A stretch of 64,000 nt of DNA, from positions 1 to 64,000 of the forward strand of contig VFJJ01000111.1 of the NCBI GenBank assembly GCA_009886115.1, given 5' to 3'. This DNA comes from Actinomycetota bacterium (GTDB taxonomy: Bacteria; Actinomycetota; Acidimicrobiia; IMCC26256; VFJJ01). Under the pieces are notes generated by a model. The model had not been told where the DNA came from, searched no databases, and saw only the letters and a list, made by a program, of their open reading frames with translations. Made by a program: the position numbers and the translations under genes. Positions within the stretch are counted from its first letter, which is position 1. Each line of letters opens with the position of its first letter. Shown here in pieces: positions 23,171-39,708 of the stretch.

Positions 23171-23964
<794 letters not shown>

Positions 23965-23968
<4 letters not shown>

Positions 23969-25209
23969 CCCCCGTTCCTGCGCACGCCGATCTCACGCAC
24001 CTGAAGGCCGACTTCCCGATCCTCGACCGCATCTCGCACAGCAAGCGGCTGGTGTACCTCGACTCGGCGGCCACGGCCCAGAAGCCGACCGCGGTGATCG
24101 AGGCCATGAACCGGTACTACCGCGAATACAACGCCAGCGTGCATCGCGGCGTCTACGAGATGGCCGAGGAGGCCACGGCGGCGATGGAAGGGGCCCGGGC
24201 CCGCATCGCGCGATTCATCGGTGCCGCCGAGGCCCGGGAATGCATCTTCACCCGCAACGCCACCGAGGCCGTCAACCTGGTCGCCCACGCCTGGGGACGG
24301 TCGACGCTGAGCGCTGGCGACGCCGTGGTGCTCACGCAGATGGAGCACCACGCCAACATCGTGCCGTGGCACATGCTGGCCGCCGAGCGGGGCATCGAGA
24401 TCCGCTGGATCCCCGTGTCGTCAGAGGGTGTGCTCGACATCTCGGGCCTCGACCGATTGCTCGACGGCGCCCGGCTGCTCGGCGTCACGGCCATGTCGAA
24501 CGTGCTCGGCACGATCGTCGACGTGCGCCCGCTGGCCGACGCCGCCCACGCCGCCGGCGCGCTCGTGCTCGTCGACGGTGCCCAGTCGGTCCCCCACCTC
24601 CCCACCGACGTGCAGGCCATGGGCGCCGACTTCTTCGTCTTCTCGGGCCACAAGATGCTCGGCCCCACCGGTATCGGCGTCCTGTGGGCACGCGCCGAGC
24701 TGCTCGAGGCCATGCCGCCCTTCCTCGGCGGCGGCTCGATGATCACCGACGTACGTCTCGACGGGTTCACGCCCATGGAGATCCCCTGGAAGTTCGAGGC
24801 CGGCACGCCCGCCATCGCCGAGGCCATCGGGCTCGGCGCTGCCGTCGAGTACCTCGAGGCCGTGGGGATGGAGTCGGTACGAGCGCACGAGGTGGCACTC
24901 ACCCGGTACGCCCTCGCGATGCTCGCCGATCGCTTCGGTGACCGTCTCGAGATCTTCGGACCCACCGACGCCCTGGCCCGCGGCAGCGTGCTGAGCTTCC
25001 AGCTCGGCGGCATCCACGCCCACGACATCTCTCAGGTCCTCGACCAGGAAGGTGTCTGCGTGCGGGCCGGGCACCATTGTGCCAAGCCCCTCATGCGCAT
25101 CCTCGGCGTGCCGGCCACGGCTCGAGCGTCGTTCTACGTGTACAACGATGAGGCCGACGTCGACGCGCTCGCCGACGCCCTCGAGGCCGCCGAGAAGTTC
25201 TTCGGCTGA
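23965..25209 (+). CDS. sufS: cysteine desulfurase SufS
   Basis: LVYLDSAATAQKP..YNASVHRGVYEMAEEAT..TRNATEAVNLVA..FSGHKMLGPTGIGVLW..RAGHHCAKPLM. Confidence 0.96.
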
Positions 25210-25261
25210 CGACCGTCCCGTCCCGTCACCGGAGCCACAGCCCTTCACCGGAGCCACAGCC

Positions 25262-25741
25262 ATGAGCGGACTCGAAGACCTGTACCGAGAGATCATCCTC
25301 GACCACTACCGCGCCCCCCGCAACCGGGGTGAGCTGCCGGTTCCCCCGGCCCACAAGACCGAGGGCTTCAACCCGCTCTGTGGCGACGAGGTCGTGCTGT
25401 ACGTCGAGCTCGACGACGACGGCGCCGTGCGCGACATCCGCACTGCGGGGCACGGCTGTTCGATCAGCCAGGCCTCGACCTCGATGATGAGCGCCGCGGT
25501 CAAGGGCAAGAGCCGCGCCGAGGTCGACACGACGATCAGGGCGTTCAAAGCCCTGATGTCGATCCACGAGGCCCGGCTGGTCCCCGAGGGATCCTCCGGC
25601 GACAGCGACACCGATGAGGGCTCAGCAGCCGAGGTGAACCTCGGCGATCTCGAAGCGCTGCAGGGCGTGGTCAAGTTCCCGGTGCGCATCAAGTGCGCCA
25701 CCCTGGCCTGGAACACGTTGCAGCAGGCTCTCGCTCCGTAG
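25262..25741 (+). CDS. sufU: Fe-S assembly scaffold/sulfur-transfer protein SufU
   Basis: LEDLYREIILDHYRAPRNRGEL..LCGDEV..GHGCSISQASTSMM..FPVRIKCATLAWNTL. Confidence 0.94.
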   Translation: MSGLEDLYREIILDHYRAPRNRGELPVPPAHKTEGFNPLCGDEVVLYVELDDDGAVRDIRTAGHGCSISQASTSMMSAAVKGKSRAEVDTTIRAFKALMSIHEARLVPEGSSGDSDTDEGSAAEVNLGDLEALQGVVKFPVRIKCATLAWNTLQQALAP

Positions 25742-25779: not shown

Positions 25780-27489
25780 TCACGTGGGGGCGACGAGGCT
25801 CAGGTACGACTCGAAGTCGATCGCGGGACGGGCGGCGCTCCAGAGGAAGCCCTGGGCCTGCTCGAGACCGTGGTGCACCAAGCGCTCACGTTGGCTCTCG
25901 CGCTCGACGCCCTCGGCCACGACGCGGAGATCCAGCGATCGGGCCAGGGCGATGATACCGACGACGATGGCCTCGGCGACATGGTCGCGGTCGATGGCGC
26001 TCACGAAGGCCCGGTCGATCTTGACGGCATCGATGGGGAGCTCGCGGAGGTACCCCAGCGACGAGTACCCGACACCGAAATCGTCGACAGCGATGTGCAC
26101 GCCGAGCTCTCGGAGCCGCGTCGCGACCCCCAGGCAGGCCTCGATGCCGGGCATCAGGGCCGTCTCGGTGATCTCCAGGCACACCGCCGATCCGTCGACC
26201 TGCTCGCGCTCGAGCGCCTCGCGCGTCAACTCGACGAGCTGCGGATCGCTCAGGTCCCGGGCCGAGATGTTCACATGGAGCACGAAACCGGGCCCGACCA
26301 CTCCACGCCGAAACCACTCACCGAGCTGGCGGATCGACTCGACGAGGACCCAGGTGGTGATGACCGACGTCGCTCCCGCCTGTTCGGCCAGGGGCACGAA
26401 CGTCGCCGGCCCCAGCAGGCCCAGCTCGGGATGTTGCCAGCGCACCAACGCCTCGGCCCCTTCGACGGTCTGCCGATCGAGGTCGATGACGGGTTGATAG
26501 TGCAGGACCAGCTCGTCGGCCATCACCGCCGAACGGAGCTCGTTGCGGAGGCGGGACTGCTCGACGACCTCGATGCGCACGGTGTCGTCGAAGAGCTGCG
26601 CAGCGCCCTCGCCACGCAGCCGGGCGCGCTGGCCGGCCGCCGACGCTTCGCGCAGCATCGTCTCAGCCGACTGCGGCCCGCCGACATGCCAGACGACGCC
26701 TGCGTGGGCCGTGAACGCGAGGTTGCGGCCGGCGACGGGGTAGGGCTCGTCGAGGACCTGGAGGAGGCGCTGGGCCGCCTCGAGCGCATCGTGCGGGGTG
26801 AGCGTGGCGTGCACCAGAGCCACGAACGACGCCCCCGCGAGCCGCGCGACGACCCCGCGGCTCCCATGGAACTGGGCCAGGCGCTGCGCCGCCTGGGCCA
26901 ACACCGCGTCGCCGGCGTCATGCCCGACGAGCTCGTTCACCGACCGGAAGTCGTCGATGGCGACGACCACGACCGCGAAGGGGGAGCCGGCCACCGTGGA
27001 GGCGTCGATCGCAATCTCGAGCTCGCGCCGGAAGGCCGTCCGGGTGGCGACACCCGTCGCCGTGTCGAGCTCGCTGCGACTCCGGGGCCCCTGCACCAAC
27101 GAGGTCAGGTCGGTGATCTCGACCACCATGGCCCGGTGCAACTCGCTGGGCCTCACGGTCATGAGGGCCGGGACCGTTTCAGCCACCGCATCGACCAGGC
27201 GCCCGTAGACACGCTGGATCCGACCCGTCGAGTGCACCCGGTTGAGGGTCCGGAGGATGGGCGCGATGTCCTCAGGGTGCACGATCGAGGTGAAGCGACT
27301 GGTGGCGGCGCCGGGGGCCCGGCCTACGAGCGTCACCAACGCCTCGTTGACGGCGAGGCACCAGGCGTCAGCGCTCACGAGCGCGGCCGGTAGCGCAGAG
27401 GCCAGCACCTCCCGAGCCCCGCTGCGTCCCGGCACGTCCCCTGATTCCCGCCCACCGCCGAAGCGGCCAGCGACCCGATCCTTGAGCAC
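25780..27489 (-). CDS. PAS/degenerate GGDEF-EAL protein (candidate c-di-GMP phosphodiesterase)
   Basis: EAL domain with EALVRW, ITETALM, DDFGVGYSSLGYLRELPIDAVKIDRAF; GGDEF site is RLAGASFVALV. Confidence 0.92.
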   Translation of the reverse strand: MLKDRVAGRFGGGRESGDVPGRSGAREVLASALPAALVSADAWCLAVNEALVTLVGRAPGAATSRFTSIVHPEDIAPILRTLNRVHSTGRIQRVYGRLVDAVAETVPALMTVRPSELHRAMVVEITDLTSLVQGPRSRSELDTATGVATRTAFRRELEIAIDASTVAGSPFAVVVVAIDDFRSVNELVGHDAGDAVLAQAAQRLAQFHGSRGVVARLAGASFVALVHATLTPHDALEAAQRLLQVLDEPYPVAGRNLAFTAHAGVVWHVGGPQSAETMLREASAAGQRARLRGEGAAQLFDDTVRIEVVEQSRLRNELRSAVMADELVLHYQPVIDLDRQTVEGAEALVRWQHPELGLLGPATFVPLAEQAGATSVITTWVLVESIRQLGEWFRRGVVGPGFVLHVNISARDLSDPQLVELTREALEREQVDGSAVCLEITETALMPGIEACLGVATRLRELGVHIAVDDFGVGYSSLGYLRELPIDAVKIDRAFVSAIDRDHVAEAIVVGIIALARSLDLRVVAEGVERESQRERLVHHGLEQAQGFLWSAARPAIDFESYLSLVAPT

Positions 27490-27688
27490 CCGTTCCCACC
27501 CCGTAGCGCGAGCCCCGACAACGACATCATCCCGGTGCCGACGACCGGCGGATAGAGGAGTTTACGGGTTTCTTGAGGCTTGAATTCCCTCTGCCCGATT
27601 TGTCCCCCAGAGGGCTGCCTCACCGGGTCGAGAGCCTCGGGCCCGGGCCGACCGGGACACCCATCGGCTCCATCGGCCCCATCGGTTC

Positions 27689-28339
27689 CTAGGCGGCGTC
27701 GACGATCGCCAGCACCGACTCCAAGAACGTGACCAGGACCTGGCGCACCGAGGCCCGGTCGCGGGCATCGACGAGCAGCAGCCGGTCCCGGTCGGCCAAG
27801 CCGAGCTGCTCGTGTGCGTGACGGCGGTCGCGGTCGGCGTCGGTCCACTTGTTGAGCGCGATCACGTGCGGTGCCGGACCGAGGCTGCGGAAGTACTCGA
27901 GGATCCGAGCCGCAGACCCGAAGCCCTCGGTCGTGGAGGCGTCGACCAGCAGGATGAACCCCAGCATCCCGCGGCTGGCGATCTCCCACATGTAGTCGAA
28001 GCGCTCCTGACCGGGGGTGCCGAACAGGTACAGCAACACGTCGTCGTCGACGGCGATGCGCCCGAAGTCGATCCCCACGGTGGTCGTTCGCTTGGGTCTG
28101 GTGGTCTCGCCCGAGATCTCGGCATCGGTGTCGACCGGCCTCACGGTCGAGATCGTCTGCACGAAGGTGGTCTTGCCCGCACCGACCGGGCCGGCCACGA
28201 CGACCTTGTGCGACTGGAGGGGCTGCGGCTCGAACGAGGGACGACGGGTTCGCTCGACCATGCCGGCCCGAGCCAGCTCGCGTACCCGTCGGACCGACGC
28301 CGCTCCACCACCCAGGGACACCGGACGGGGCGCCATCAC
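27689..28339 (-). CDS. CvnD/MglA-like small GTPase
   Basis: GPVGAGKTTFVQTIS (P-loop), TTVGIDFG, LFGTPGQERFDYMW, ALNKWTDAD. Confidence 0.9.
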   Translation of the reverse strand: MMAPRPVSLGGGAASVRRVRELARAGMVERTRRPSFEPQPLQSHKVVVAGPVGAGKTTFVQTISTVRPVDTDAEISGETTRPKRTTTVGIDFGRIAVDDDVLLYLFGTPGQERFDYMWEIASRGMLGFILLVDASTTEGFGSAARILEYFRSLGPAPHVIALNKWTDADRDRRHAHEQLGLADRDRLLLVDARDRASVRQVLVTFLESVLAIVDAA

Positions 28340-28704
28340 TGCAACAGCTCGGCGAGGGTCTCGGACACGACCTGGGCCTCGAGGAAGACCAGTCCGAGGT
28401 TGGCGTGGACCGTGGTCGCCACGGCCAGCGTGGCCCCGACACCCGCCAGGTCGTAGACCGCGAGGCAGCCGGCATCCCCGCGGATGACCGTCTCCAGGAC
28501 CGGCCCGACGCCCACCGTGCTGGCCACGCGATGGCTCAGGCCGGCGACGGTGGCCGCCAGCGCCGCCATCCTCGGCACCTCGACATCGGGCAGGGCGGCG
28601 ACGATGGGCAACCCGTCACTCGCGGCCAGGACGGCTCCGTGGGCGTCGCCGGTGGCCTCGATGAACTCGTGGATCGCGTCCTCGAGCTCGGATTGGCGAC
28701 TCAC
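28336..28704 (-). CDS. roadblock/LC7 domain protein
   Basis: DAHGAVLAASDGLPIVAALP..RMAALAATVAGLSHRVA; ATGA overlap with the GTPase. Confidence 0.85.
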   Translation of the reverse strand: MSRQSELEDAIHEFIEATGDAHGAVLAASDGLPIVAALPDVEVPRMAALAATVAGLSHRVASTVGVGPVLETVIRGDAGCLAVYDLAGVGATLAVATTVHANLGLVFLEAQVVSETLAELLQ

Positions 28705-28749
28705 GTGCCGGCCATCCGAAGCGTCTCAGCGGTCGGGCAACTCGCCATC

Positions 28750-30675
28750 TCACAGGTCCTTGACGGCCGAGAGCATGCGCAGCAGGACGTTGCGGTCGAT
28801 CCTGGGCAGATCGTCGTTGCGCCCACGACGGCTCGGAGCGGCGTCGGACGACGAGCCCACCGATGCCAGCGACGCTCGCCTCGGCAGATCTGCGGCGGTG
28901 CGCTCGTAGTGCTCGTCACCGAGGGCGTCATCGAGGTCCTCGTACAGGTGGGCGTAGCGATCGGTGTAGCTCGACGGTCGCAACGCCGGCACGTTCGACA
29001 CGCCGCGTCGGTCGTCGCTCGGCCCCTGTTGGGCGATCGGCGCGCGCTCCCACTGGCTCCCCAGACGATCCGAGAGGCCCTCGCGCCGCGCCGAGAGGCT
29101 GTCTCGCCGCGGAAGCACCGGCGGCTCCTCGGCGAAGACCGGCCCGGCCGAGGGCTCGGACAGCGGAACAGGAGCGACGGGGCCCCCCGGAACGGCACCG
29201 TCGTGACGGGCGTCGTCCGAGCCCTCGGCAGTCTCGTCGAAGCTCGCCCACCGATCCGACCACGAGCTCGCCGCGCGTGGCGCAATCGCGGGATCGTCGC
29301 CGCCCACCTCGTGCGACGATGCGATCGGGACCGTCTCGACACCCTCGTCGTCGGCGAACGAGGCCGACCCCCGGTGGTCGATTCCCTCGTCGTCGCCCGG
29401 CAGCTGGCCGTCAGCGAATCGGCCGTCGTTGCGCTGGGCGTCGGGGACGACGTTCGTCGCTTCCCATCGCGCGAGCCACAACGCTCCGATCGGATCTCCG
29501 ACATGCTCCCGGGGACCGTCGAAACCGCTGTTCACAGTGGGCTGCATCGACCCGTGACCGTCGCCACCGGGGTCGGCGATGAAGACCGGCGCCGGGGGGG
29601 TGGGAACCTCGGCCGAGGGTGTCGGGTTGGCCGTCGCCTCCGAGCCGGCGAACGACGGCTCCCGGGGAAGCTTGAGCAAGGCCGCACCCGGCGATCGACT
29701 CTGCGAATCCGATGCGGGCGACGCGGCGCTGCCGAGCTCGGTGTCGGCGAGCGCGTCGTGAAGGGCCTGGGCGATGGCATCGGCCGCCCGAGGCTCGGCC
29801 TCGAGCAGATCCGGCTCGAACACGGCGGGCTCGGCGCCGACAACCGCAGCGGAGACCGCAGCGGAAGCCACCTCGGCCACAACCGGCTCGGGGGCCGGTG
29901 CGAGCGGTTCGCTCGGCGACTCCGCGAGGGGCTCCAGCGGATGGGCAAGCGTCGTGAGCGCCCGGGGCGCTGCATCGACGAACTCGACGAACTCGACGAA
30001 CTCGACCAGGCCGCGCTCGACGAGCTCGCGAAGCGCCTGTGACGTCTCGAACTCCCCGCGCCCGATGGACGCCGCGATCTCCCTCGGGTCATGCGCGCCG
30101 TCGACCGCCGCGATGACCTGCCAGAGCCCGGAGGTGATGGTGATCTCGGTCAGGGCGCCCGGAAGGTGACGTACGAGCCGAGCCACACGCCCGTCGAGGG
30201 GAACGACGGCCCGGAGCGCCTGCCATTCGGCGACCCGGCCGAGGGCCGTCACGAACAGCGGCTCGACCGCGAGGGCGGCGATCCGGCCGACAGCGGGTTG
30301 GCCGTCGGGAACGAACTCGAACTCGCCGCTCTTCCAGAGCAGGATCTGATGCAGCGTGTCGGCGACCCGTTCCTCGATGAACGACACGAGGCGCTCGCGC
30401 TCGATCGCACCGCGCTCGACGAGAGCCTCGCCCCACGACTCGCTCGTCGTGACCGCGTCGGCGAGCGCGTCGGCGTCGACGAGGCCCGCGCGAACCAACG
30501 CCTGGGTCGACTCGTCGGGATCGACCGCCGCATAGGTGACCGCACCGGCGTCGCACCACACGACCGCGTCTTCACCCGGCCCGCTGATCCGGAGCGCGCC
30601 ACTCTTCGAAGAGAACGTCAGCAACTGCAGGATGTCCTGCAGGGTGAAGCTCTCGAGACTGCCTCGCAAGCTCAT
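28750..30675 (-). CDS. DUF4388 (PATAN-like) domain protein with long low-complexity C-terminus
   Basis: MSLRGSLESFTLQDILQLLTFSSKSGALRISG... N-terminal DUF4388 signature. Confidence 0.85.
   Translation of the reverse strand: MSLRGSLESFTLQDILQLLTFSSKSGALRISGPGEDAVVWCDAGAVTYAAVDPDESTQALVRAGLVDADALADAVTTSESWGEALVERGAIERERLVSFIEERVADTLHQILLWKSGEFEFVPDGQPAVGRIAALAVEPLFVTALGRVAEWQALRAVVPLDGRVARLVRHLPGALTEITITSGLWQVIAAVDGAHDPREIAASIGRGEFETSQALRELVERGLVEFVEFVEFVDAAPRALTTLAHPLEPLAESPSEPLAPAPEPVVAEVASAAVSAAVVGAEPAVFEPDLLEAEPRAADAIAQALHDALADTELGSAASPASDSQSRSPGAALLKLPREPSFAGSEATANPTPSAEVPTPPAPVFIADPGGDGHGSMQPTVNSGFDGPREHVGDPIGALWLARWEATNVVPDAQRNDGRFADGQLPGDDEGIDHRGSASFADDEGVETVPIASSHEVGGDDPAIAPRAASSWSDRWASFDETAEGSDDARHDGAVPGGPVAPVPLSEPSAGPVFAEEPPVLPRRDSLSARREGLSDRLGSQWERAPIAQQGPSDDRRGVSNVPALRPSSYTDRYAHLYEDLDDALGDEHYERTAADLPRRASLASVGSSSDAAPSRRGRNDDLPRIDRNVLLRMLSAVKDL
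29975..30006. repeat. 9-bp in-frame coding repeat (EFV)n
   Basis: tcgacgaactcgacgaactcgacgaactcgac; encodes VEFVEFVEFVD. Confidence 0.8.
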
Positions 30676-30742
30676 CGAGCGTCCCTCCTCGATCGTGATC
30701 GGCCCATCGCCACTACCCCAGCCCTGTTCATCGCTGCCTCCC

Positions 30743-31516
30743 TCAACCGCTCCCGCATTCCTGGACCAGCCGGGCGAATCGCTGTGCCGCCCGCCGGCAT
30801 TCGAGATGAATCAGCCCCAGATTCCGGCACGAACGAGCGGCGACGGCCAAGACGGTCTGGCTGCCCGCTTCGTACACCACGAAACACCCGTCGCCGCAGC
30901 GCACGAGGGTCTCCCGATACACACCGAGGCCGGTCGACTCGACGGCCCGGGCGCTCAAGCTGGCAACGCTCGCCGTCATCGCCGAGATGCGCTCCACGTT
31001 CGCGTCGGACAGGGTCGCCGCCATCGGGAGCCCGTCACGAGTCGCCAGGAGCGCGCCGACGATGTCGGGAACAGATGCCGAGAGCTCCCCGAGATGGCGT
31101 TCGAGGCGGACTCTGGTCGCAGCGACAGTCGGATCCTTGTCGAGCTCCCGAGCCCAGGTCGGGGACTCGGACCCCAGCCACAGGTCGTCCACTGCGAAGG
31201 GTCTCCGCGTTCCAGACGAGCGCGCCCCGGCAGCCGTCGTCTCGAAGCGATCGTCGACGCGAACGGCTGGCGGAAGCGGGGGCAGCGGAGGGAGCGGGGT
31301 GAGCAGCTGCTCGAGCCTCCGGACGCCGGGCGCATCGTCGGTCGGGGCGGTCACCGAGGCTCCGAACAGCGAGGGTTCGAGCACCGAGCCGGCGAACGCC
31401 GAGTCGGTCTCAGCAGGCGACGACCGCCGCCGCCCGAACCGGGGTCGGCGCGTCGACGCTGGCGCGGGGGCAGTTCGGCTCCCATGGGGTCCGAAGGTGT
31501 TCGATGCGCTGCTCAT
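30743..31516 (-). CDS. roadblock/LC7 domain protein (second paralogue, extended N-terminus)
   Basis: DIVGALLATRDGLPMAATLSDANVERISAMTASVASLSARAVESTGLG. Confidence 0.85.
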   Translation of the reverse strand: MSSASNTFGPHGSRTAPAPASTRRPRFGRRRSSPAETDSAFAGSVLEPSLFGASVTAPTDDAPGVRRLEQLLTPLPPLPPLPPAVRVDDRFETTAAGARSSGTRRPFAVDDLWLGSESPTWARELDKDPTVAATRVRLERHLGELSASVPDIVGALLATRDGLPMAATLSDANVERISAMTASVASLSARAVESTGLGVYRETLVRCGDGCFVVYEAGSQTVLAVAARSCRNLGLIHLECRRAAQRFARLVQECGSG

Positions 31517-35517: not shown

Positions 35518-36351
35518 TCAGAAGCCGGGGTCGGCGAAGGGGTCGGGAGGGGCGACGAAGGCTTGGGTCGACGAGAGGCCGTGGCGACGGGCGATCTGCT
35601 CGTAGCCGGTCTGCTCGAGCTCAGCGGCGAGCTCGGGTCCACCCGACTCGACGATCTGGCCGGCGATGAAGACGTGCACCCGGTCGGGGCGCAGCTCGAA
35701 GAGCAAGCGGTTGTAGTGCGTGATCACCAGCACGCCCAAGGGCTCGCGGCCCGCGGCGGCCCCGGCGTCGCCCGGGTGCGTGAGCGATTCCACCCGCTGG
35801 GAGACCTGGCGCAGCGCGTCGACGTCGAGACCGGAATCGAGCTCGTCGAGGATGGCGATCTTGGGTGCCAGCACCGCCAGCTGGATGGTCTCGAGACGCT
35901 TCTTCTCGCCGCCCGACAGGCCGACGTTGAGCGGGCGATCGAGCAGGGCCGTCGCCAGCCCCAGCCGATCGGCTTCGAGCCGGACCACCTCAGCGATGCC
36001 GGCTCCCGAGCCCGTCGCGCGGCGACCGGTCGCGGCGAGTGCCTCCGACAGGAACTCCACGAACCCGATGCCCGGGATCTCGACCGGGTACTGGAGCCCG
36101 ACGAAGAGCCCGGCTGCGGCGCGCTCGTGCGTGGGCAGGGCGAGCAGGTCGGTGCCGTCGAGCGTGACGGTGCCGGCGGTGACCGTGTAGCCGGGGCGAC
36201 CCATCAGCACGTGCTGGAGCGTCGACTTCCCCGAACCGTTGGGGCCCATGATCGCCTCGACGCGTCCCGACGCGACCTCGAGGTCGACGCCCTTCAGGAT
36301 CGGGTGACCGTCGACCTCGGCGTGGAGGCCCTCGATCTTCAACAGGCTCAT
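35518..36351 (-). CDS. sufC: SufC paralogue 2
   Basis: IMGPNGSGKSTLQHVLMGRPGYTVTAGTV; LQYPVEIPGI; LSGGEKKRLETIQLAVLAPKIAILDELDSGLDVDALRQVS. Confidence 0.92.
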   Translation of the reverse strand: MSLLKIEGLHAEVDGHPILKGVDLEVASGRVEAIMGPNGSGKSTLQHVLMGRPGYTVTAGTVTLDGTDLLALPTHERAAAGLFVGLQYPVEIPGIGFVEFLSEALAATGRRATGSGAGIAEVVRLEADRLGLATALLDRPLNVGLSGGEKKRLETIQLAVLAPKIAILDELDSGLDVDALRQVSQRVESLTHPGDAGAAAGREPLGVLVITHYNRLLFELRPDRVHVFIAGQIVESGGPELAAELEQTGYEQIARRHGLSSTQAFVAPPDPFADPGF

Positions 36352-36740
36352 GGGGCCGCCTCCTCGGTGTCGAGATCGACCACCACGGTGTCACCGTCGA
36401 GGCGCACCCGGTAGACGGGCACCGCCGTCGTGGCCGGCAGGGTCTGCGGCTCCCCGCTCAGCAACGAGAACGTGGAACCGTGCTTGGGGCATTCGATCTC
36501 GCATTCGTCCTCCCACACCGCGCCCTCCGACAGCGAGTAGTCGGCGTGCGAGCACTCGTCGCCGATGGCGTGCCAGTCATCGCCGATGTGCACGATGCAG
36601 ATGCGGTGACGACGCCCGGCGCCGTCGACCACGTCGAAGCGCCGGGCCGAACCGGCAGCCACCTCGCCCGTCGAGCACACCGCGAACGACGATGCCGATG
36701 GCGATGGCGATGCCGATGAGGATGGCGATGGCGCGGCCAT
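36348..36740 (-). CDS. Rieske 2Fe-2S ferredoxin-like protein (in suf operon)
   Basis: GDECSHADYSLSEGAVWEDECEIECPKHGSTFSL (CxH / CxxH); overlaps sufC2 and sufD. Confidence 0.9.
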   Translation of the reverse strand: MAAPSPSSSASPSPSASSFAVCSTGEVAAGSARRFDVVDGAGRRHRICIVHIGDDWHAIGDECSHADYSLSEGAVWEDECEIECPKHGSTFSLLSGEPQTLPATTAVPVYRVRLDGDTVVVDLDTEEAAP

Positions 36741-38038
36741 CAGGCCCTCCCCCCGAACTTGGCCGTGACGGCCGTCCGCAGAGGCTCGGCCAGCGACGCG
36801 AGGGGGAGCCGGGCCAGCACGTCCTCGAAGAACCCGAACACGATCAGCCGCTCGGCGTCGGCCGGGGCGATCCCCCGCGACTGGAGGTAGTAGAGCTGAT
36901 CCTCGTCGATGGGGCCGATCGCCGAGGCGTGCGAGCACTTCACGTCGTTGGCCTCGATCACCAGGTTCGGGATCGATTCCGCGCCACAGGGGGGCGGCGC
37001 CAACACCAGGTTGCGGTTGGTCTGGTTGGCCCGGGCCTTCTTGGCGTTCACGCGCATGTGGACGATCCCCGAGTACACCGACTTGGCCTGCTCGTCGACG
37101 GCGCCCTTGAACAGGAGATCGCTCGAGGTGTATGGCGCCTGATGGTCTTGCAGGGTGCGGAAGTCGAGCGTCTGGCTGCCGGTCCCGAAGTACACGGCGA
37201 GCAGATCGCTCGAAGCGCCCTGGCCGACGAGCACCGACTCCGAGCGCAACCGGGCGTAGTCGCCGCCGAGGGCCACGGCCGACGAGCGCAACGTCGCGTC
37301 ACGGCCGATCGTCGATCGCTGCAGGGCCACCTGCCAGGTACCGGGGCCGTGGGCCTGGAGCGCGACGTGGCTGAGCATCGCCCCGTCGCCGATCACGAAC
37401 TCGGTCACGGCGTCGGCGAGATGCACGATGCCGCTGGGCGATGCGTGGTACTCGGCGACCGTCGCCTGAGCCCGCTCGCCGAGGATCACGAGGGTGCGGG
37501 GGAACGACACCAGGCCGTCGCCCTCGCACCAGTGCGCCACCACGATGGGGCGCTCGACGACCACGCCCGCCGGCACGTGCACGTACGCCGCACCCGAGAG
37601 GAACCCGTCGTTGAGCTCGGTGAACCAGTCGGCCGACGATGATGCGGCAGTCCCGAGGCTCTCGCGCACGGGTCCGTCGGCCACCTCGAGGACGTCTCCC
37701 ACTGCGACACCCCGGGCAACGAGCTCGTCGTCGAGCTCGAGGTGCACCACCCGACCGTTGCGGACGACGATGAGGCCGGCCCGGTCGGGGATCGCCGCCG
37801 CTACCGCGGCCGCCGCGGGTGGGATGCCGGCCTCGCCGATGCCGTCGATCCACGCCGGCGTGAACCGGTCGAGGGCGAGCGACTCGATCCGGGAGTAGCG
37901 CCAGATCTCCTCGGACGAGGTGGGGGCCGTACCCGCGGCGAACCGCTCGACCGCGGCGATCCGACGCTCGGCGAGCCATGCCGGACCGTCGAGCCGGCGC
38001 GCCACGTCGGCGCCGAACGACAAGGTGGTGGTGCTCAT
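36740..38038 (-). CDS. sufD: Fe-S cluster assembly protein SufD
   Basis: TLVILGERAQATVAEYH..ALGGDYARLRSESVLVGQGASSDLLAVYFG..KCSHASAIGPIDEDQLYYLQSRGI. Confidence 0.94.
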   Translation of the reverse strand: MSTTTLSFGADVARRLDGPAWLAERRIAAVERFAAGTAPTSSEEIWRYSRIESLALDRFTPAWIDGIGEAGIPPAAAAVAAAIPDRAGLIVVRNGRVVHLELDDELVARGVAVGDVLEVADGPVRESLGTAASSSADWFTELNDGFLSGAAYVHVPAGVVVERPIVVAHWCEGDGLVSFPRTLVILGERAQATVAEYHASPSGIVHLADAVTEFVIGDGAMLSHVALQAHGPGTWQVALQRSTIGRDATLRSSAVALGGDYARLRSESVLVGQGASSDLLAVYFGTGSQTLDFRTLQDHQAPYTSSDLLFKGAVDEQAKSVYSGIVHMRVNAKKARANQTNRNLVLAPPPCGAESIPNLVIEANDVKCSHASAIGPIDEDQLYYLQSRGIAPADAERLIVFGFFEDVLARLPLASLAEPLRTAVTAKFGGRA

Positions 38039-38095
38039 GTTCCCCTCAGTGTGCGCGTGCTGCGACGGCGGAGACCCGACCGGCAGATGCCTTGA

Positions 38096-38131
38096 GCCGA
38101 CGGTGTCGTATCAGCCGACGGTGTCGTATCA
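38096..38131. repeat. 18-bp tandem duplication (2 copies)
   Basis: gccgacggtgtcgtatca x2, at the 3' end of sufB. Confidence 0.85.
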
Positions 38132-39526
38132 GCCGACAGAGCCTTCCATCTCCAGCTCGATCAACCGCGACAGCTCCACGGCGTACTCCATGGGCAGCGT
38201 CTTGGTGACCGGCTCGATGAACCCGTTGACGATCATGGCGACGGCCGCCTGCTCCGACAGCCCTCGACTCATCAGGTAGAAGAGCTGATCCTCGCCCACC
38301 TTCGACACCGAGGCCTCGTGCCCGACGTTGGCGTCGTGCTCGTTGATCTCCATGTAGGGGTACGTGTCGGACCGGCTGTGGTCGTCGAGGATGAGCGCGT
38401 CGCAGGTGACGCGGCTCTTGGCGTGGTGGGCGCCGGGCTCGACCCGGACGAGCCCGCGGTAGGTGGTGCGGCCGCCATCCTTGCTGATCGACTTGGAGTT
38501 GATGAGCGAGGTCGTCTCGGGGGCGGCGTGCACCATCTTGGCCCCGGCGTCCTGGTGCATCCCGGCGCCGGCGTAGGCGATCGAGAGCACCTCGCCGTGA
38601 GCCTTGGGTCCCATGAGCCACACGGCCGGGTACTTCATGGTGAGCTTGGAGCCGATGTTGCCGTCGATCCACTCGACGGTGGCCTCGGCGTCGGCTCGGG
38701 CCCGCTTGGTGACCAGGTTGTACACGTTCGGCGACCAGTTCTGGATGGTCGTGTAGCGGATGCGAGATCCTGGCAATGCCACCAGCTCGACGACCGCTGA
38801 ATGCAAGGCATCGGTCGTCCAGACCGGAGCCGAGCACCCTTCCACGTAGTGCACCGACGAGCCCTCGTCAGCGATGATGAGCGTCCGTTCGAACTGGCCG
38901 GCGTTCTCGGAGTTGATCCGGAAATATGCCTGCAATGGCATGTCGACGTGCACGCCCGGGGGCACATAGATGAACGACCCCCCCGACCACACGGCCGAGT
39001 TGAGGGCGGCGAACTTGTTGTCTCCAGGCGGGATGAGCGTACCCATGTACTTCTGCACGAGCTCCGGATGGTCGCGCACCGCGGAATCCATATCGGTGAA
39101 AAGAATCCCGAGACTCTCGAGATCTTCACGATTCCGGTGGTACACCACTTCGCTTTCGTACTGTGCAGTGACACCGGCGAGGAACTTGCGTTCTGCTTCG
39201 GGGATCCCGAGCTTCTCGTAGGTGTTCTTCACGTTGTCTGGGAGCATGTCCCAGTTGTTGACCTGGCCGTCGGTGGGCTTGATGTAGTAGTAGATGTCCT
39301 GGAAGTCGATGTCGGGCATGTTCTGCGCGAACCACGACAGCATGGGCTTGCGCTCGAAGGTCTTGAGCGACCGGAGCCGGAACTTCAGCATCCAGTCGGG
39401 CTCGCCCTTCATCTCCGACATCTCGCGCACGACCGCTTCGGAGAGCCCCTTCTTGGGCTTGAAGACGTAATTCTCCTCGTCGTGCCAACCGAGCTGGTAG
39501 CGGCCGAGGTCGATCGCCTGGGTCAT
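38129..39526 (-). CDS. sufB: Fe-S cluster assembly protein SufB
   Basis: [84 protein letters not shown]-type ending. Confidence 0.96.
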
Positions 39527-39553
39527 GACGATGCTCCTGTGCTGGCGGACGGG

Positions 39554-39616
39554 ATTTCCACTACGCAGATAGTAACAACTCCATCGGCCGATTCCCACTA
39601 CGCCGGTAGGGGAAAT
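39554..39616. promoter_or_regulatory. Two tandem SUF operator-like palindromes upstream of sufB
   Basis: atttccactacgcagatagtaa (39554-39575) and attcccactacgccggtaggggaaat (39591-39616). Confidence 0.6.
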
Positions 39617-39708
39617 CCCGGAGCCCCCGAGAACGGACATGCCGGCTCTCGGCCCGCCCACCTGCGGGTATCCACCAACACCGCCGGCGACCGGCGTACT
39701 CTGCCGAC

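Follow-up and report, generated by a model that had tools for sequence, protein, structure and literature searches.

Type IV pili are retractable surface fibres, and pilB is the gene for the pilus ATPase. Actinobacterial conservons, which we take to be sets of a CvnA kinase, a CvnB roadblock protein, a CvnC protein with DUF742 and a CvnD GTPase of Group 2, combine adjacent genes for a roadblock protein and an MglA-family GTPase, as does the locus described here. In Myxococcus, MglA with its effectors SgmX/SopA acts on and recruits PilB (PMC11580455), and RomR binds MglC, a roadblock protein, through its C-terminal helix (PMC12719032). PilB1 of Synechocystis is a binding target of PATAN regulators (PMC9090330), and PilB of Xanthomonas is a target of FimX, which consists of PAS, degenerate GGDEF and EAL parts (PMC8389850). 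Some MglA Group 5 GTPases are encoded near PATAN genes, according to the accessible text of a 2014 survey (Wuichet & Sogaard-Andersen 2014, PMC4316618; Makarova 2006 cited there).

The window (i.e. the whole stretch of 64,000 nucleotides analysed) contained five co-directional minus-strand genes for a roadblock protein, a DUF4388/PATAN protein, a second roadblock protein, a small GTPase and a degenerate-GGDEF–EAL protein. As shown in Table 1, all five genes listed in the preliminary description were recovered at their positions and on that strand, with Pfam matches above the cut-offs (23 bits for Robl_LC7, 25 bits for DUF4388 and 21.6 bits for Ras); its DUF4388 (PATAN-like) call stood at 82.5 bits against the cut-off of 25. 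From roadblock A through DUF4388 and roadblock C to the GTPase the intergenic gaps were 67, 45 and -4 bp. The roadblock C/GTPase junction read ...CAGTGATGGCG, in which the TGA stop of roadblock C overlapped a GTG start of the GTPase by 4 bases (GTGA) or an ATG start by one base (TGATG), and the ATGA coupling described earlier was to be corrected accordingly. The GTPase and EAL genes were separated by 199 bp (27490–27688). Scanning of this gap for promoters and terminators was empty, its RNA fold was no better than that of shuffles (z=0.79), and a riboswitch/known-RNA search near the EAL gene gave no family above chance. With this gap of 199 bp, against 67, 45 and -4 bp for the other genes, the EAL gene may or may not belong to the operon.

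Table 1. Coordinates and predicted products of the five genes in the window
Feature	Position	Strand	Properties
Roadblock/LC7 protein A	30743..31516	-	257 aa; roadblock domain residues 144-226; low-complexity N-terminal extension; Robl_LC7 51.9 bits
DUF4388/PATAN protein	28750..30675	-	641 aa; DUF4388 82.5 bits
Roadblock/LC7 protein C, second MglB-type protein	28336..28704	-	122 aa; Robl_LC7 40.7 bits
Small Ras-like GTPase, MglA family	27689..28339	-	Ras 27.2 bits, ATP_bind_1 59.9 bits; P-loop GPVGAGKTT, G3 FGTPGQ, G4 NKWT
Degenerate-GGDEF–EAL protein, weak PAS-like N-terminus	25780..27489	-	569 aa; GGDEF 98 bits, EAL 225 bits

The locus had been called conservon-like, with its kinase and DUF742 gene missing and DUF4388 in place of the kinase. 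HMMs for the conservon kinase and DUF742 indeed found no match anywhere in the window. Elsewhere in the order, conservons carried both genes. The source genome (5.4 Mb in 224 contigs, the sole genome of its family in the comparison set) carried four roadblock genes, two in the module and two in DUF742-containing conservons on contigs C168 and C148; the kinase was visible in the C148 conservon, and the C168 conservon ended near the contig edge. In a tree of 46 GTPases, all 25 conservon GTPases formed a single clade (100/99) that excluded the window GTPase, and forcing the window GTPase into this clade cost 15 log units (AU p=0.039). The G1–G2 insert and the NxFD motif of CvnD were absent from the window GTPase, and both window roadblocks lay outside the CvnB clade (99/98). 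With two DUF742 conservons elsewhere in the genome, the GTPase and roadblocks outside the CvnD and CvnB clades and the CvnD signatures absent, the conservon reading failed: judged from its sequences, the locus is not a stripped-down Streptomyces-type conservon. A conservon from which the kinase and DUF742 had disappeared and which had acquired DUF4388 and, as its output, a c-di-GMP phosphodiesterase, with the GTPase controlling c-di-GMP turnover, would account for the CvnB/CvnD-like adjacency of roadblock and GTPase, for a PDE-type gene next on the same strand and for the response regulator-GGDEF gene seen near one Chloroflexi module, but the clade placements, the coexisting conservons, the 199-bp gap and the lack of an EAL gene at any related locus examined made this highly improbable.

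In the same tree the window GTPase was sister to four GTPases from f21, a different family within the class (99/95), and grouped with all PATAN-linked GTPases at moderate support (88/78). Its G3 (LFGTPGQERF) and its G2 (TTTV, without the Group 1 arginine) agreed with the Group 5 motifs. Its G4, NKWTD, kept the lysine of the Group 5 consensus [NT]KxD with the Asp one position late; G4 varied in close relatives (NKTT, NKTG, NRAT) and was NKQD in Chloroflexi. The Asp-Gly pair of Group 2–5 MglB proteins was present in both window roadblocks (TRDGLP and ASDGLP). Thus, from motifs and neighbours rather than from a tree with Group 5 references, the window GTPase best fits MglA Group 5, with which, as that group appears in the accessible text of the survey (PMC4316618), it shares G3 GTPGQ, the G2 Thr for the Group 1 arginine, the G4 lysine, a roadblock partner and a PATAN neighbour, and from which it differs by two roadblocks and by G4 NKWT. 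The GTPase/GAP-type switch of the preliminary description is supported by these GTPase and roadblock genes, with GAP activity as a prediction.

Of 58 genomes from the order, 34 had DUF4388, and the locus there ran alaS-ruvX-mltG-aroE-DUF4388-pilB-pilB2-pilC-pilin. The gene immediately upstream of DUF4388 was aroE in 29 of 31 order loci, and the one immediately downstream, with the same orientation, was pilB in 27 of the 30 with pilB visible; the three exceptions belonged to one genus with DUF4388 inverted. Two families outside the order had aroE-roadblock-DUF4388-GTPase-X-pilB (L130, L131), X being a protein of 395–423 aa with no Pfam match (L131:8789-10060, L130:6856-8043). In f21, which had the closest GTPases, the order was aroE-roadblock-DUF4388-pilB and a separate contig carried the GTPase (L166–L169; the L169 contig ended inside DUF4388), and the f21 GTPase closest to that of the window stood alone, away from this locus (L126–L129). 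One Chloroflexi locus (L115) had prepilin peptidase-DUF4388-GTPase. Gene-neighbourhood conservation, proposed earlier as a check on all five genes, held for the roadblock-DUF4388(-GTPase) unit, which was seen in other families beside pil genes, and did not hold for an EAL gene, which adjoined none of the related units examined. DUF4388 had not replaced a kinase, since this unit is a separate one beside type IV pilus genes in relatives. The pilus link of the PATAN–roadblock–MglA module is the new element of this analysis: PATAN neighbours of Group 5 were known before, and the accessible text of the 2014 survey (PMC4316618) leaves their target unnamed and reports no pilus synteny, whereas in the relatives of the window the PATAN unit is tied to pilB, which supplies a candidate target.

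In a further family, a locus (L112, G316:C168) carried DUF4388-GTPase-roadblock-DUF4388-like in a row, another way of arranging these components.

The DUF4388 protein was present in single copy in the source genome. It comprised a PATAN domain with a helical insertion of about 46 residues and a winged-helix-like part (residues 1–230), a linker (about 245–625) and a C-terminal helix (628–640); in the AlphaFold model 1–230 was of high confidence and 245–625 mostly disordered. An insertion of 45–53 residues was common to the window protein and the roadblock/GTPase-linked DUF4388 proteins, and the order's forms were without it. In the tree the window protein joined the roadblock-/GTPase-linked forms of other families (99/95), apart from the forms found in its own order. 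The insertion was rejected as a strict marker for partnership with a GTPase, since the Chloroflexaceae copies are GTPase-linked and yet without it.

The C-terminal tail carried a motif, which was DRNVLLRMLSAVKDL in the window, DRGALLRMFSALRD in the order, DKSLVLRLIAGVKNL and NKALIMRLIHGVREL in other families and KRGIILKIIDRIRGL in Chloroflexi. A strict tail pattern, written after seeing the sequences, so that the counts describe the pattern and do not test it, matched 27 of 43 DUF4388 tails (of the rest, three were cut by contig ends and about ten were visible variants), 27 of all 5,977 ORF tails in the set, taken to be these same DUF4388 proteins, and 0 of 8,600 shuffled tails. The tail was kept in genomes where the search, which covered GTPases only, detected none at the threshold used; PilB, or a different component of the pilus, would then be a more probable partner of the tail than the GTPase.

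DUF4388 as a c-di-GMP receptor was rejected, the sole MshE-type match scoring 16.1 bits, far below the cut-off of 38. A PDB sequence search with DUF4388 returned nothing significant. Literature searches found nothing for DUF4388 with roadblock, and nothing relevant among the matches listed for PATAN with roadblock. In a fold search with the PATAN model, the top matches were all subunits of GATOR1/KICSTOR/SEA, which are eukaryotic GTPase-regulating complexes; they were not significant (E at least 8.5e-3 with the full model and 3e-2 with the domain only) and superposed poorly, and are a lead only.

From the synteny of DUF4388 with pilB in relatives, the groupings of DUF4388 and of the GTPase (99/95 each), the conserved tail helix and the precedents elsewhere, the module was read as a pilus-machine switch. 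As the best explanation, which we consider fairly probable, roadblock-DUF4388-roadblock-GTPase would be an MglA-type (Group 5-like) switch that specifically serves a type IV pilus-type machine, with DUF4388 bridging to a PilB-type ATPase. The roadblock proteins, as GAP or scaffold in the manner of MglB and MglC in Myxococcus, would govern the cycling of the GTPase between its GTP and GDP states, and DUF4388/PATAN would be the adaptor passing the GTP state of the switch to the pilus ATPase. Its PATAN domain and C-terminal helix, held apart on the long flexible linker, could bridge the switch to the PilB-type assembly ATPase and thereby determine the site or the timing of filament extension. The version of the module in this lineage is set apart from the aroE-pil locus, includes a second roadblock and retains the GTPase in the operon, and the downstream EAL enzyme would probably be an independent or recently recruited neighbour. 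Gene content, subfamily placement, relatives' synteny and the tail are direct observations; from them we infer the physical interactions and the direction of control.

Each step of this mechanism has a precedent in other bacteria, and for the DUF4388 family would apply by analogy. The Myxococcus MglA/MglB/MglC/RomR module likewise has an MglA-type GTPase, two roadblocks and an adaptor that combines a disordered linker with a C-terminal helix, and its output is type IV pili, the output proposed here; its GTPase, however, is of Group 1 (arginine finger, TVPGQ), and its adaptor carries a receiver domain where DUF4388 has PATAN. The PATAN response regulators of Synechocystis (PixE and others) share the PATAN domain and the type IV pilus ATPase as target (proposed here), but carry a CheY-like receiver, whereas in the window PATAN leads into the disordered linker and terminal helix, and genes for a GTPase and for roadblock proteins lie next to it. 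What looked like a conservon lacking its kinase thus becomes a testable pilus regulator, in which the conserved terminal helix of DUF4388 supplies a specific contact to mutate, and, if the reading is true, control of type IV pili of the MglA and PATAN types extends to a conservon-bearing, probably actinobacterial lineage.

Pilus genes were not detected elsewhere in the window. In the source genome the module was not adjacent to pil genes, the nearest pilB being on another contig (C200), and aroE (C155) was followed by an unrelated gene in the opposite direction and no pil genes. The module has moved in the source genome, away from the aroE-pil locus. C200 encoded pilB-pilC-pilin, and PilT-like ATPases were also encoded in the genome. 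The C200 PilB, the only MshEN-type PilB, was an outgroup to all syntenic PilBs; a foreign origin of C200 was not supported (its tetranucleotide usage correlated at 0.979 with that of the window, and its GC was 0.68 vs 0.70). We therefore infer the client machine from relatives, the module being away from the pil locus and the C200 PilB divergent, which is the main weakness of the argument. Besides the distance from pil genes, the pilus-switch reading has against it that the window roadblocks were placed separately from the roadblocks encoded at the pilus loci of f21/f23/f25 (roadblock tree, weak support) and that the f21 GTPase was unlinked from the pilus locus. Repurposing in this lineage, by which a module descended from a pilus regulator would now control something else, would fit the unlinked position, the aroE without pil genes, the divergent remaining PilB and the extra roadblock; it seems rather improbable, as DUF4388 retains the C-terminal tail of pilB-linked DUF4388 proteins and genes for PilB, PilC, pilin and PilT-like ATPases remain in the genome.

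In the EAL protein, previously described as PAS-dGGDEF-EAL, the degenerate GGDEF (signature AGASF) and EAL domains were confirmed, and the PAS match was sub-threshold (PAS_4 E=0.0098, 16.5 bits vs 23.1). The EAL catalytic residue set was kept and aligned with active phosphodiesterases, and the protein looks catalytically competent. About 14 EAL proteins were encoded in the source genome, so that the adjacency is weak evidence, and the EAL gene is probably not part of the conserved module. The claim that the locus feeds c-di-GMP turnover came down to a single adjacency across 199 bp, and the c-di-GMP link of the module is putative. A FimX-like role is attractive by analogy: the EAL protein could be a true partner at this locus and, together with the PATAN-GTPase switch, set or sense c-di-GMP for the pilus ATPase. 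FimX (Pseudomonas, Xanthomonas) has the same order of PAS-like, degenerate GGDEF and EAL parts and a PilB target, and the MshEN domain of the C200 PilB carries RIG/RLG-type repeats, by which c-di-GMP sensing is possible for this protein (inspected relatives were without the arginine). The window protein, however, keeps its catalytic residues, has no Pfam match to a REC domain and is tied to a pilus-related module by neighbourhood only, in an adjacency that is not conserved; a partnership of this kind is unlikely. More broadly, DUF4388/PATAN proteins might be general pilus adaptors docking by the C-terminal helix on the assembly ATPase, with the MglA-roadblock switch repeatedly plugged in or lost, and switch, adaptor and c-di-GMP phosphodiesterase might here form one relocated cassette tuning a c-di-GMP-sensing PilB at a distance, a speculative extension that we regard as unlikely.

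Two further observations concerned the surroundings of such genes. In family f13 of the order, a DUF4388-like gene preceded the kinase of an otherwise ordinary conservon (L040:4137-9297, L049:8946-14238; G027, G028), with a DUF4388 match at or below the Pfam cut-off, and PATAN-like and conservon genes do meet there. In the window, the module stretch was flanked by two SUF iron-sulphur sets (23171-25741 and 35518-39661), one on the plus strand with a SufC-like ABC ATPase and SufS- and SufU-like genes (names read from sequence) and one on the minus strand with a second SufC-like ATPase (from sequence) and two SufB/D genes (from Pfam), giving two sufC-like copies.
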